40,307 bases of DNA, taken from IMG/VR virus record IMGVR_UViG_3300036781_000574, positions 1 through 40,307 of that record, one strand, 5' to 3'. Below, piece by piece: positions 3,587-40,307 of the stretch. Source of the stretch: a virus. Position 1 is the stretch's first letter. Each line of letters starts with the position of its first letter. Position numbers and translations under genes: made by a program. The notes under the pieces were generated by a model that was given only the letters and a program-made list of their open reading frames with translations, was not told the origin of the DNA and did no database searches.

Positions 3587-3633
3587 TACCCCTGATAAGG
3601 GTGAGGTCCGAGGTTCGAATCCTCGTGCGCCCA
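3587..3633 (+). other. attP: attP: 3' half of a tRNA-Ile(GAT) gene
   Basis: The sequence folds as the 3' half of a tRNA. Anticodon stem 3587-3591/3599-3603, anticodon loop CTGATAA with GAT at 3594-3596, variable loop AGGTC, T stem-loop CGAGG-TTCGAAT-CCTCG, acceptor strand TGCGCCC and discriminator A at 3633. No D-arm or 5' acceptor strand precedes it, so it is not a gene. It is the identity segment a phage uses to restore a host tRNA after integration. The T27-G43 wobble at the left edge suggests the shared core starts at 3588. The host gene should begin with GGGCGCA. Confidence 0.88.
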
Positions 3634-3692
3634 CTGGCGCGGTGAACCTTCCTGATGGCGGGGGATCTGACGCCGATAGCCTCGATGTGTCA

Positions 3693-4171: not shown

Positions 4172-4398
4172 GGATCCACGAAATCCACGCTATTCGTAAA
4201 CCCTTGAGGTGGCCCGAGTTGCAAATCGACGTTAATTCAACCTGGATCCACGTAATCCACGCTATTCGGGCGGCTACTGTACGGGCGAACGGGTCCGTCG
4301 GCGAATAGCGTGGATTACGTGGGCCCGACTCGAATTAAGGCGCAGACGCAAGTCGTTGCGTGCCAACGTCTCCAGAATAGCGTGGATTACGTGGATCC
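4172..4398. repeat. ori: Dyad of four 25-bp iterons, candidate replication origin
   Basis: Copies of GGATCCACGTAATCCACGC-TATTCG lie at 4172-4196 and 4244-4268 on the plus strand, and at 4302-4326 and 4374-4398 on the minus strand. The outer-to-inner offset is 72 bp on both sides, so all four copies are symmetric about 4285. The spacers also share GAnTTGC and TTAATTC at the same mirrored positions. The rightmost copy is read through as coding sequence for MDPRNPRYS near the C-terminus of the DUF3987 protein. Iterons beside a replication ATPase typically bind an initiator; operator function is the alternative. Confidence 0.7.
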
Positions 4399-7008: not shown

Positions 7009-7728
7009 TCAATCGCCAGCGACCTCCTGGCTCTCGAGCCGGGCGAGCTTCCGCCGCGCCTCGGCCAGGGCGAGGACCACCTGGCCGGGATCCCAGTCGA
7101 CCATGCGGCCGGGGAAATCCTGCAACCGGGCCCAGCTATTGAGGTACTTGATCAGGCCGACGCCGTGCTTCTGCTCCATCTCCTTGCACCACGCCCAGAT
7201 CGCCTTTCCGGTCCTGGGATCGGCGGGGGGACGCCCGTTCGCCGGCTTCGTCGAGTGGTCGGGCCGATGGCCGTTGGTGCCGTTCGCCGCCGGCCTGGCC
7301 GGCTCGGGGGCGGGTGTCTCGACCGGAGCGATCGCCGGCGACGGCGATCGCTCCTGGATGAAGCTGGGGACGCCGTCGCGGTAGAGGTAGCGCGCCACGC
7401 CGAACTTCACGGCCGCGCGCTTGAACGCGTCCGAGTAACCGGACTTGTCGTCATCCCCCGAGTCGGCCATCCCGGCGTAACCGCCCGCGTCGGATTTGGT
7501 CAACGTCGAGCCATCGGGCAGGCGGACGGTGAGCTCGCAGAGCACGCTGTTCTCTCCGGGCACGAACCGATCCCACCAGTTCTCAGGGCCGAGCACGCCA
7601 TCGAGCCGGTTCATCACGGTCCGCGCGGTGATGTAGTGGAGCTGCCGGCCGCTCTGGGTGCGGATCTTCAATTCGTTCTGGTCAAAGGGGGCGGCCAGGG
7701 CCGCCCAGAGGTCGGGGTGTTGGGTCAT
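7009..7728 (-). CDS. Rad52-like single-strand annealing protein
   Basis: This 239-residue protein carries a Rad52/Rad22-type core in residues 1-125, including LHYITARTVMNRLDGVLG and the family helix SDAFKRAAVKFGVARYLY (99-116). A Pro/Ala-rich linker follows (about 127-165), then a helical C-terminal domain that may bind a partner. Such phage proteins anneal complementary single strands, often with SSB and an exonuclease, in recombination-dependent replication. I saw no accompanying exonuclease. The ATG at 7728 is preferred because AGGAG lies 10 nt upstream; the longer frame to 8136 runs over another gene. It belongs to the leftward replication operon. Confidence 0.85.
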   Translation of the reverse strand: MTQHPDLWAALAAPFDQNELKIRTQSGRQLHYITARTVMNRLDGVLGPENWWDRFVPGENSVLCELTVRLPDGSTLTKSDAGGYAGMADSGDDDKSGYSDAFKRAAVKFGVARYLYRDGVPSFIQERSPSPAIAPVETPAPEPARPAANGTNGHRPDHSTKPANGRPPADPRTGKAIWAWCKEMEQKHGVGLIKYLNSWARLQDFPGRMVDWDPGQVVLALAEARRKLARLESQEVAGD

Positions 7729-7748
7729 GGGAATGGCTCCTGAAGGAG

Positions 7749-7773
7749 GGCCCGGCACTTTGAGGACCGGGCC
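7749..7773 (-). promoter_or_regulatory. Intergenic hairpin before the Rad52-like gene
   Basis: GGCCCGG / CCGGGCC form a 7-bp stem with an 11-nt loop. On the minus strand it is followed by CTCCTTCAGGAGCC and the ATG at 7728. The same hairpin-then-Shine-Dalgarno layout precedes the gene at 7785-8159. It lacks a T-tract, so it is not an ordinary terminator. Confidence 0.5.
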
Positions 7774-7784
7774 TCGTCCCATCG

Positions 7785-8159
7785 TCACTTGGTGAAGTCG
7801 CCGGCCGTCAGGTAGGCGGCCGTCCGCTTGGCACCGTCCAGCTCGTCGGCGAATTCGGTCAGCTTCACGCCGAGGTCGACCGCGGAGTCCATCGCTTCCC
7901 GGAAGGGGACGTGACAGTCCTTGAACGCCGCCGTGATCGACGCCAGGTCGCCGGCGTCGAGAGGGATCATCAGCTGGCACTTGGCGATCAATGCGATCAG
8001 CCCATCGACGCGCCAGACGACATCGGAGGCATGGTCCCTGGCCGCCTTGGCGTGCTTGCGGAGATCCTCGACCGCCTCCGCCAGCTCGACCTGGGCGCGG
8101 GCTTGGCGTTCCTCGGGCGTGCGATCGGGGGGCCACTTCTCACCGGATTCCACAGACAT
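7785..8159 (-). CDS. Hypothetical helical protein, 124 aa
   Basis: The protein is almost entirely alpha-helical and charged, with a basic N-terminal third (TPEERQARAQVELAEAVEDL) and an amphipathic middle. AGAGGAGC precedes the ATG by a normal distance. It is the second gene of the leftward replication operon, just ahead of the Rad52-like gene. No conserved motif is recognised. Its place is typical of small recombination accessory proteins, but no function can be claimed. Confidence 0.7.
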   Translation of the reverse strand: MSVESGEKWPPDRTPEERQARAQVELAEAVEDLRKHAKAARDHASDVVWRVDGLIALIAKCQLMIPLDAGDLASITAAFKDCHVPFREAMDSAVDLGVKLTEFADELDGAKRTAAYLTAGDFTK

Positions 8160-13604: not shown

Positions 13605-13633
13605 AGTCTAAGTCGGTGGGTATACCCTGTCAA
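13605..13633 (-). promoter_or_regulatory. Near-consensus leftward promoter
   Basis: On the minus strand a consensus TTGACA (13628-13633), a 17-bp spacer and TAGACT (13605-13610) form the strongest promoter visible in the window. It drives the operon 13563-10669. The spacer and -35 are covered by the operator palindrome, so it should be tightly repressible. Confidence 0.75.
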
Positions 13634-13645
13634 TTGGTATACCCA
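13617..13645. promoter_or_regulatory. Operator: 10-bp inverted repeat over the promoter
   Basis: TGGGTATACC and GGTATACCCA are perfect inverted 10-bp arms separated by 9 bp. Each arm contains the self-palindrome GGTATACC, so two dimers could bind side by side. The site overlaps the -35 and spacer of the leftward promoter and lies upstream of the divergent RHH gene (13748), its likely regulator. A third partial copy (GTCTACCCA) follows at about 13654-13662. Confidence 0.65.
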
Positions 13646-13747
13646 GTGTGCTAGTCTACCCAGTGCGTCCGGCATGAATGGAGCCCACGAACCGGCGGTG
13701 TTAGAGTGGACGGGACCCCCAGCTCACTCACTCGTCGGAGCCCCAAC

Positions 13748-15030: not shown

Positions 15031-15648
15031 TTAGTCCTTCCAGAACCCCTTGAACCGGTCCGAGGCGAGGGCAGTGTATTTGACGGTGTGCTGGATGTTA
15101 CGGTGCCCAAGATACTGCTGAATGGACCGGGTATCCTGCCCGTCGTTTGCCAATTTGAAGCCGGTCGCGTGCCGAAGCATATGGGGGTGGGCAGGGAAGG
15201 GAAGCCCAGCGGCCACGCCGGCGCGAGCCACGATCTTCCGGAACCCCGATTCGCTCATCGGTCCATCGCGTTCGCTGGCGAAAACATAGGGACCTTCCGG
15301 GTGTTCCCGGAGCACTTTCCTCAAAGCCCGGATCGCCCATCCGGCGAGTGGATGTGTCGAAGGGATTCCTCTCTTGGCCCGGCGGACATGGAGCTGCCCT
15401 CCCTCGAGGTCGACCTGGTCGCGCCTTAGTGCCACCAACTCACTGACCCTTAAGCCATGGCGGGCGGCCAGACGGACCATAAGTGCATCGCGGGTGCCGT
15501 GGCGGCCCAGCTCAGCCGCAGCCTTGGCGAGGCGCTCGACCTCCTCAGGTGTCAGATGTTCTCGACCGCGGACCTCGACGTTGGGCCGACGGAGAGGCGG
15601 CGAGGATCTCGCCGGCACGGTCTCGCCGACTGGTTTCTTCACGCCCAT
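15031..15648 (-). CDS. Tyrosine recombinase, catalytic-domain-only (FimB/FimE size class)
   Basis: This encodes 205 residues, with no core-binding domain. The full catalytic set is present: R67 (HGLRVSEL), K92 (RAKRG), H156 and R159 (HPHMLRHATG), H182 (YLGHRNIQHT) and Y191 (VKYTAL). FimB/FimE-like enzymes of this size invert or resolve DNA at short inverted arms. A perfect 13-6-13 palindrome lies 93 bp upstream. A copy of one arm overlaps the ribosome-binding region (15650-15662), which suggests the enzyme also controls its own expression. It is in one operon with the larger recombinase at 15844-16860. Confidence 0.88.
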   Translation of the reverse strand: MGVKKPVGETVPARSSPPLRRPNVEVRGREHLTPEEVERLAKAAAELGRHGTRDALMVRLAARHGLRVSELVALRRDQVDLEGGQLHVRRAKRGIPSTHPLAGWAIRALRKVLREHPEGPYVFASERDGPMSESGFRKIVARAGVAAGLPFPAHPHMLRHATGFKLANDGQDTRSIQQYLGHRNIQHTVKYTALASDRFKGFWKD

Positions 15649-15649
15649 G

Positions 15650-15662
15650 GAAACTTTCCCGT
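15650..15662 (+). repeat. Isolated half-site GAAACTTTCCCGT
   Basis: This 13-bp sequence is repeated exactly at 15738-15750 as the outer part of the left arm of the palindrome. It lies immediately upstream of the start codon at 15648 (minus strand) and includes the GGGAAAG that would serve as its ribosome site. It could be an accessory or regulatory binding site for the recombinase. Confidence 0.5.
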
Positions 15663-15740
15663 TTTGGATGGTCGGGGTGGGTCGGAGCTGCTCACTCGTG
15701 AAGCGGCCCCGATCCTTTCTTCGATATTACCTTGGCAGAA

Positions 15741-15772
15741 ACTTTCCCGTAAATGGCCTTTTACGGGAAAGT
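15741..15772. other. lox/dif-like palindromic site, 13-6-13
   Basis: ACTTTCCCGTAAA, the 6-bp asymmetric centre TGGCCT, and TTTACGGGAAAGT form two perfect 13-bp inverted arms. This matches the layout of tyrosine-recombinase core sites (loxP 13-8-13, dif 11-6-11). It lies in the 195-bp gap between two tyrosine recombinase genes. No T-tract follows on either strand, so it does not look like a terminator. I noticed no second full copy elsewhere. A single site per circle fits multimer resolution or integration at a host dif-like site. Confidence 0.62.
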
Positions 15773-15843
15773 CTCCTTTCCCGGCGCAAGACGAGGGGTC
15801 GCAACGCATCTAGGAATGGCTTATATGACGCGCCGGGCAACGT

Positions 15844-16860
15844 CTATTTCCCAGCGCCGCGGCCCCTTCGCTTCGGCGTTCCCATCGACCGCGTAATGTC
15901 GCCCCCGACGTCCTTTCTCCGGTCGTCGTAAATTAACACCGTGTCGATCTTTCCATGCCTCGAGAAGGACCGGACGTCTCGGACATCCCAGCCTCCATCG
16001 AGCGCCTCGGTGATCGCCTGGTGTCTGAGGCCGTGCGCGCGTACCGTGCGCCCCACTTTGGCACGCACCGCGAGCGCTTTGACCAGCCGATTGACCGACT
16101 CGCCGGTGAGACGGCCGGATTCGACTTGCGCCCGATCGGTGCGGAGGAAGAGCGCGCCGGGAAACTCGCCACGCACGGAGAGCCACTTGGCGATCGCCGC
16201 GGTGGTCCGCGCGTTGATGGTCAGCCACTCCTTCTGTCGGCGACCCTTCCCGAGGACCTGCACCGCGGGACGGGTCGGATCGAAATCGTCCGGATGATCG
16301 AGCGTGACCACTTCCCCTCGTCGGAGGGCTCGATCGTGGAGCAGGAGGAGCACGGCCAGGTCCCGGATCGGTTGCGACCCGCCGTCGGCTGCCTCGCGCT
16401 CGGCCAGCTCGAGCAGCTTCTTCCAACCCGCAGTCCCCGGGCCTGAGCAATCCCGGAACGCCTCCGCCTTGGGTGGGTCAAGCTCCAACTTGAGCGAGGT
16501 CAGCCCGACGATCCGGCCCCGATCCGTCGCGCGACGCAGAGCCGCCAGCCGTCGCGCGATCGTCGCCGGCGAGAGCTTATGCGCCTCCATCTCGGACTGG
16601 TATGCGAGAACCAGGGCATTCGCCGCCCCTTGCTCGAGCCGGTACAGATGCAAGAGAGCTGCCTGGCCGTCGAGCTCGCCGGTGAACGCGGCGAAGGCGC
16701 GATAATCCTTCGTGTAGCCCGCCGCTGACTGTGGGGACAGCCCCGTCAGGATTAGGCCCAAGAGGTCGAGGGACGGGGCGACAGGCAACGCGCAAACTTC
16801 ACCAGAGCGCCTAACCAGACCATTACAGGCTTTGTCTGGCTCTCCCCATTCTGATATCAT
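15844..16860 (-). CDS. Tyrosine recombinase, two-domain
   Basis: This encodes 338 residues. A SAM-like core-binding domain spans about 38-125 (SPQSAAGYTKDYRAFAAFTG; TIARRLAALRRA) and the catalytic domain about 140-325. Visible residues are R180 (RALRRGEVV), K205 (LGKGRRQK), H276 and R279 (AHGLRHQAIT), H302 (FSRHGKIDT) and Y311 (VLIYDD). The architecture is XerC/D- or Cre-like. It overlaps the upstream gene by ATGA and precedes the palindromic site and the smaller recombinase. With a separate integrase at 2386 beside attP, this pair probably serves another reaction. Confidence 0.88.
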   Translation of the reverse strand: MISEWGEPDKACNGLVRRSGEVCALPVAPSLDLLGLILTGLSPQSAAGYTKDYRAFAAFTGELDGQAALLHLYRLEQGAANALVLAYQSEMEAHKLSPATIARRLAALRRATDRGRIVGLTSLKLELDPPKAEAFRDCSGPGTAGWKKLLELAEREAADGGSQPIRDLAVLLLLHDRALRRGEVVTLDHPDDFDPTRPAVQVLGKGRRQKEWLTINARTTAAIAKWLSVRGEFPGALFLRTDRAQVESGRLTGESVNRLVKALAVRAKVGRTVRAHGLRHQAITEALDGGWDVRDVRSFSRHGKIDTVLIYDDRRKDVGGDITRSMGTPKRRGRGAGK

Positions 16861-27310: not shown

Positions 27311-27419
27311 TGGCTTTCGGGGTGTGCTCCTGGGAGAGCAGCCGGGTTCCAACCTCGGCCCATAGGGTTCGACTCCTTACACCCCGGTTTGACTGACCCC
27401 GTGTCCCTTCGGTGATTCG

Positions 27420-40016: not shown

Positions 40017-40307
40017 ATGCGTATCGGCGTCGACTGCTATCCCATCCAGGACCCCGCCTCGGCCGAGCGCGGGATCGGCCGCTACTCTCGCGACCTGCTC
40101 AGGGCCCTCCTCGACCACGCGCCGGAGGACCAGTTCGTCCTCTACCTGGTGAACGGGATGGACGACGCCGGCGTGCCGGCGGCGGCCAACGTCCGGATCG
40201 CCCGGGTGAATCCGATCACCCGCCTCAACCCCTTCACCGATACCAGCATCGCCTGGCACACCAACCCCAACCCCGATCGCCTCGACGCGATGCTCGTGCT
40301 CTCTCCG
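40017..40307 (+). CDS. GT4-type glycosyltransferase, 5' part (continues at position 1 region)
   Basis: Starting at ATG 40017 the protein begins MRIGVDCYPIQDPASAERGI and continues through GRYSRDLLRALLDHAPEDQF, the glycine-rich N-terminal strand-loop-helix of GT4 enzymes. The frame enters the 127-bp overlap at 40181 and continues unbroken from position 2 to the stop at 1055-1057. It should be counted once, as a 406-residue protein. Confidence 0.9.
   Translation, partial: MRIGVDCYPIQDPASAERGIGRYSRDLLRALLDHAPEDQFVLYLVNGMDDAGVPAAANVRIARVNPITRLNPFTDTSIAWHTNPNPDRLDAMLVLSP
40181..40307. repeat. 127-bp terminal overlap, right copy
   Basis: This is identical to bases 1-127. It is the same genomic segment written a second time, because the contig is circular. 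Confidence 0.95.

Follow-up and report, generated by a model that had tools for sequence, protein, structure and literature searches.

Among the described tyrosine recombinases, TnpI is a protein of ~280 amino acids. Cre is a two-domain enzyme, and its target, loxP, consists of 13-bp arms and an 8-bp spacer with no accessory half-site; Xer systems rely on host-encoded two-domain enzymes and on dif sites with arms of ~11 bp, again without such a half-site; and the FimB/FimE-type recombinases are proteins of ~200 amino acids that comprise the catalytic domain only. The TnpI/IRS sites of Tn4430 and Tn5401 contain an inverted-repeat core, IR1-IR2, and the directly repeated accessory elements DR1 and DR2, and are located upstream of and close to the gene; the system resolves cointegrates, and expression is modulated when the site is bound (PMC7157771). 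Among 190 Tn3 elements in one survey, only three were recorded as having TnpI (PMC7157771). In P1, the recombinase Cre keeps the circular phage genome monomeric (PMC2409434). Searches of the open literature recovered descriptions of TnpI, TnpS/T, Xer, and Cre but no system with three half-sites.

The window, by which we mean the whole viral sequence of 40,307 bp analysed here (IMG/VR record IMGVR_UViG_3300036781_000574), carries at its ends an exact 127-bp direct repeat (positions 1–127 and 40181–40307, no strand assigned), recognized by sequence identity. With this repeat, the record closes to a circle of 40,180 bp. The repeat length of 127 bp is also a common assembler k-mer length, and the glycosyltransferase gene at 26–1057 lies across or adjoins the circle junction rather than being in host DNA.

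The original prediction reported a 13-6-13 palindrome between two tyrosine recombinase genes, and this is present as described: the plus strand reads ACTTTCCCGTAAA-TGGCCT-TTTACGGGAAAGT at 15741–15772, between the gene for a 338-amino acid (aa) recombinase (15844–16860, minus strand) and that for a 205-aa recombinase (15031–15648, minus strand). Read on the minus strand, to which the predicted core recombination site is assigned, it comprises an upstream arm, ACTTTCCCGTAAA (15772–15760), a 6-bp centre, AGGCCA (15759–15754), and a gene-proximal arm, TTTACGGGAAAGT (15753–15741). The centre had been called asymmetric, and so it is, albeit at just one base pair: since its inner GGCC is likewise palindromic, 15 of the 16 base pairs of the 32-bp core are symmetric, the exception being a single T/T pair. 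The assignment as a core is based on its uniqueness, its matrix rank, and the homologous cores near relatives described below. The palindrome is the sole match in the window at ≤3 mismatches and did not appear in any of 100 shuffles; with a matrix built solely from Calothrix and Geminocystis half-sites, its arms occupy ranks 1 and 2 of 80,590 positions. No core with 11-bp arms was found in IMG/VR beyond the record itself, and a putative fourth half-site at 15775–15787 scored at background with the half-site matrix.

The extra half-site that had been noticed at the ribosome-binding region of the smaller recombinase gene also proved to be real. It is located at 15653–15665 and reads AAAACGGGAAAGT on the coding (minus) strand (15665–15653) and ACTTTCCCGTTTT on the plus strand, overlapping the ribosome-binding region just ahead of the start codon of the 205-aa gene. 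It is a direct repeat of the gene-proximal arm, positioned 88 bp downstream (start to start, minus strand). Taken alone, as an arm match with 3 mismatches, this third half-site is no better than chance over 40 kb; it is significant because of its direct orientation at 88 bp, which was equalled in only 2 cases when the local region was shuffled 500 times, and because an identical 13-mer, lying 79 bp from its core, occupies the equivalent place in L012, the locus of the closest plasmid homologue. Furthermore, it ranks 7th of the 80,590 positions with the Calothrix/Geminocystis matrix and has equivalents, spaced at 77–79 bp, in 12 other loci, annotated or viral.

The 205-aa protein is a single-domain tyrosine recombinase (PF00589, E = 8.8e-40), in which the PF00589 match spans residues 31–195 and thus essentially the catalytic domain alone. 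Its catalytic set, R67/K92/H156/R159/H182/Y191, is fully conserved among its relatives, and the R, K, HxxR, H, and Y motifs of the 338-aa protein (PF00589) are present by inspection, in line with the earlier statement that both enzymes retain all catalytic residues. The best relatives of the 205-aa protein are recombinases of ~200 aa encoded on plasmids, with the best records being 62%–65% identical; a tblastn search with the protein matched 1,368 plasmid records. The 338-aa protein represents a second plasmid-linked group, with relatives on plasmids near RepA (Azospirillum, 45% identity) or ParA/ParB (pANL) and further members in Desulfomonile and many cyanobacteria.

A common layout recurs near the ~200-aa relatives, namely, a 32/33-bp inverted-repeat core accompanied by one directly repeated half-site 77–79 bp away, which was found at 13 related loci distributed over plasmids, Tn3 elements, and viral contigs. 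The cores include ACTTTGCCTAGTT-N7-ATTTAGGCAAAGT upstream of the recombinase in Nostoc (L018), ACTTGCCCATTTT-N6-TTTATAGGCAAGT in Geminocystis (L019), ACTGTTACACTTC-N6-GAACCGTAACAGT in the viral contig L002, and ACTTTCCCCAAAA-GATCCC-TTTTTGGTAAAGT in Hydrogenophilus (L012). The L012 site, ~880 bp upstream of the recombinase and ahead of other genes, is by itself within the shuffle range and convinces solely through the sequence identity that it shares with the site in the window. In a blind search for inverted arms with a direct copy, in which each locus was compared with 40 shuffles, the three-part element was the top hit and outscored every shuffle for the window and for 10 homologous loci; the sites of L012, L020, and L060 were found with less significance, and no three-part element was detected in L013, which has a degenerate recombinase, in L015, or in the more distant L061–L064. 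Palindromes of the ATGTCCGCTT type in L002 and L003 were rejected as candidate sites, since they are present in more than one copy per contig and remote from the recombinase.

In L014 and L019, the third half-site lies ahead of the start codon; in Tn3-linked and other relatives, it falls within the recombinase coding sequence. Its position therefore tracks the core, not the start of the gene. In L016, L018, and L021, all of the Tn3 type, it lies within codons for Phe-Ser-Ala-Lys, so that protein and site sequences are jointly constrained. The spacing of 88 bp in the window, and of 87 bp in the viral contig L089, is one helical turn above the common 77–79 bp.

Relatives that keep the recombinase and lose the palindrome had been named as the observation that would refute the proposal, and we searched for them among viruses. 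A profile of the 205-aa group recovered 80 viral loci. When spacings of 50–120 bp were allowed at 61 of these, 28 best hits fell at 76–78 bp, against 2.6 expected, and shuffled and reverse-strand controls showed no such peak (binomial p ~1e-22, with some inflation from near-duplicate contigs, for example, L100/L101 and L121/L122). When only spacings of 76–79 and 87–88 bp were admitted, 30 of 57 viral loci outscored each of the 40 shuffles made from them. Roughly half of the viral relatives thus have the site in place, far above the controls; the other half, approximately, have no significant site near the gene, which counts against a role in resolution, and in these, other genes may separate the site from the recombinase, as in L012, or the site may be truly absent. 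The 38.1-kb phage contig L089, with its site at 2790–2821 and the 87-bp spacing, encodes a terminase and a ParA-family protein and is likely a phage-plasmid. Terminase matches were found in 9 of the 22 viral contigs examined, and 3 of 10 tested close as circles through terminal repeats.

The arms and centres of these cores evolve differently. Both arms are identical between L002 and L003 and their 6-bp centres are unrelated; across the five loci with this type of arm, identity is 88%–100% in the outer arms and 33% in the centre. The ACTTTCC group displays the same pattern, although only its low centre similarity (39%) is informative, because the members were chosen by arm similarity. Retained arms around a free centre would be the pattern expected for a tyrosine recombinase core. 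Comparison of the loci establishes, at the level of sequence, a three-part site with fixed spacing that co-occurs with the 205-aa group and has conserved arms and free centres.

With respect to the described systems, the closest resemblance is to TnpI/IRS: the window encodes a tyrosine recombinase with a complete active site and has an inverted-repeat core upstream of its gene. However, a single accessory half-site, at 77–79 or 87–88 bp across the loci, takes the place of DR1 and DR2, and no Tn3 transposase (TnpA) was found among the 29 window proteins, a subset of the ORFs, that were scanned with Pfam, whereas several relatives in cyanobacteria directly adjoin Tn3-family transposase genes. 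Because these 2 features differ, we refer to the system as TnpI/IRS-like and do not consider it a member. The protein itself, ~200 aa long and without the usual N-terminal DNA-binding domain, also differs from TnpI. The layout with one accessory site is apparently new, as judged by comparison with a secondary description of TnpI. The position of the site in the Tn3-linked relatives is that of the res/irs sites of the Tn3 family (PMC7157771), and since only three elements were listed with TnpI in the above survey, the cyanobacterial Tn3 elements with small recombinases appear to have gone uncounted there.

Like Cre/lox, the locus combines a single phage-encoded tyrosine recombinase with a near-palindromic core present once per circular genome, but the core is 13-6-13 rather than 13-8-13 and is accompanied by a conserved third half-site. 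A tyrosine recombinase, a 6-bp centre, and the proposed multimer resolution are the points of likeness to XerC/XerD-dif and XerH-type systems. The FimB/FimE-type enzymes are similarly small and restricted to the catalytic domain; they act on two inverted sites and flip the segment between them, whereas the window has one site per genome.

We consider it likely that the palindrome and the third half-site form a TnpI/IRS-like resolution site of the 205-aa recombinase and probably also serve in autoregulation. The resolution part of this reading is favored because there is one core per circle and because the site of the Tn3-linked relatives is at the position of a resolution site; autoregulation is probable because the third half-site covers the ribosome-binding region. 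The original suggestion of multimer resolution as in P1 is thereby retained as the best fit, with TnpI/IRS rather than lox or dif as the nearest analogue. Likewise, the idea of a second recombination system apart from the integrase is upheld, the palindrome being very probably a tyrosine recombinase core site, but the best fit assigns this core to the 205-aa enzyme and not to both recombinases.

From this arrangement, we infer binding, cleavage, a bias toward resolution, autoregulation, and a benefit to the phage. Two 205-aa protomers would occupy the 13-bp arms and cleave the DNA where these adjoin the 6-bp centre, and a further protomer on the third half-site, which is in direct orientation and at a helical phase close to that in the relatives, would act as an accessory element, biasing the enzyme toward a pair of sites in direct repeat within a single circle. 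With one core per 40,180-bp circle, two cores would meet solely in a dimer or cointegrate, and recombination would resolve such phage-genome dimers or cointegrates to monomers. Occupancy of the third half-site would probably repress the recombinase gene. Besides the viral relatives with no significant site, further observations speak against resolution: the window has an integrase and no ParA/RepA-type domain match among the 29 proteins scanned, which leaves a plasmid phase putative; the L012 site taken singly does not exceed its shuffles; and the spacing in the window departs from the common one.

An outside chance remains for the two elements being operators only, bound by the 205-aa protein or another regulator and controlling the recombinase promoter without recombination. 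The position of the site upstream of the gene and over the ribosome-binding site in the window fits this possibility, as do the half-sites ahead of the start codon in L014 and L019, and TnpI binding at its own site is regulatory in Tn5401 (PMC7157771). Yet the location of the L012 site far upstream, ahead of other genes, and of the third half-site inside the coding sequence of Tn3-linked and other relatives would be odd for an operator, and conserved arms around a free 6-bp centre suit a crossover core. Operator and recombination roles would be compatible rather than exclusive.

That the 338-aa recombinase uses the site, whether alone or jointly with the 205-aa enzyme in the manner of XerC/XerD, seems quite improbable. 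The end of the 338-aa gene is 72 bp from the site, the enzyme is catalytically complete, and its group is found on plasmids near replication and partition genes; on the other hand, none of five 338-aa relatives has an equivalent palindrome or three-part site nearby, nor do they share a convincing palindrome, whereas 205-aa relatives have the site without an adjoining 338-type gene, and the symmetry of the arms fits a single enzyme. The 338-aa enzyme probably uses another site.

Two further roles, integration at a chromosomal target (dif-like, as put forward in the original prediction, or lox-like) and participation in an inversion switch, which was likewise put forward there, are highly improbable. 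The core is of suitable size, and some phages do integrate at dif. However, the 18 outer bases of the core were matched 7 times across 84,980 genomes, about the number expected by chance and with none of the matches retaining the inner arm bases, so that no matching chromosomal site was seen in the sampled species, outside which the phage's host may fall; and with a single core copy in the window, there is nothing for a switch to invert. Integration can, moreover, be attributed to a separate system, since a dedicated integrase exists elsewhere, as had been stated: a 360-aa phage integrase (2386–3468, minus strand; PF00589, phrog_1), upstream of whose gene a sequence resembling a tRNA 3′ end, GGTGAGGTCCGAGGTTCGAATCCTCGTGCGCCCA (3600–3634, plus strand, read directly from the sequence), is the probable attP core. 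Finally, a hairpin functioning as a terminator or in hairpin-telomere resolution is scarcely credible despite the symmetry of 15 of the 16 pairs and a strong single-strand fold at the palindrome (z −4.0), given that promoter and terminator scans returned nothing at the core, that homologue centres are asymmetric, that the contig closes as a circle, and that telomere resolvases belong to a different, larger family.

Searches with the 338-aa protein, terminase, capsid, and helicase as queries identified no close phage relatives. The Chloroflexota genomes searched contained no close relative, the best match being ~39% identical, and Methylomirabilota yielded 4 matches at E ≤ 1e-30, some of them partial. 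Elsewhere in the window, a repeat of ~24 bp, GGATCCACG(T/A)AATCCACGCTATTCG, occurs four times (2 direct, 2 inverted) at 4172–4398, flanking the 3′ end of a DUF3987/DnaB-N helicase-primase gene; arm sites of the integrase, origin iterons, or the site of another recombinase are candidate roles. A near-perfect palindrome, GGGTATACC...GGTATACCC, at 13616–13648, upstream of minus-strand ORFs, is operator-like. A protein with a Rad52/22-like domain (7009–8136) is a probable single-strand annealing protein, a 393-aa phage protein (18906–20087) has a trypsin-like protease domain and a predicted signal-like start, and a tRNA-Trp (CCA) gene (27317–27388) is located directly past the major capsid gene.

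Whether the resolution site of the 205-aa recombinase exemplifies something broader is, in our judgement, evenly balanced: single-domain recombinases of ~200 aa and resolution sites with three half-sites may constitute a widespread and apparently undescribed minimal class, shared across phyla by plasmids, Tn3 transposons, and many phages, in which an accessory half-site at a helically quantised distance (77–79 or 87–88 bp) would alone act as the topological filter. If true, this would give a site and a job to the common small genes vaguely annotated as "tyrosine-type recombinase/integrase" and would explain a second recombinase in a phage that already has an integrase. With just one accessory half-site, such a resolvase would provide a simple model for how tyrosine recombinases sense DNA topology, for which two spacings one helical turn apart offer a direct phasing prediction, and the many pairs of arms and recombinases may be a source of orthogonal recombination sites.
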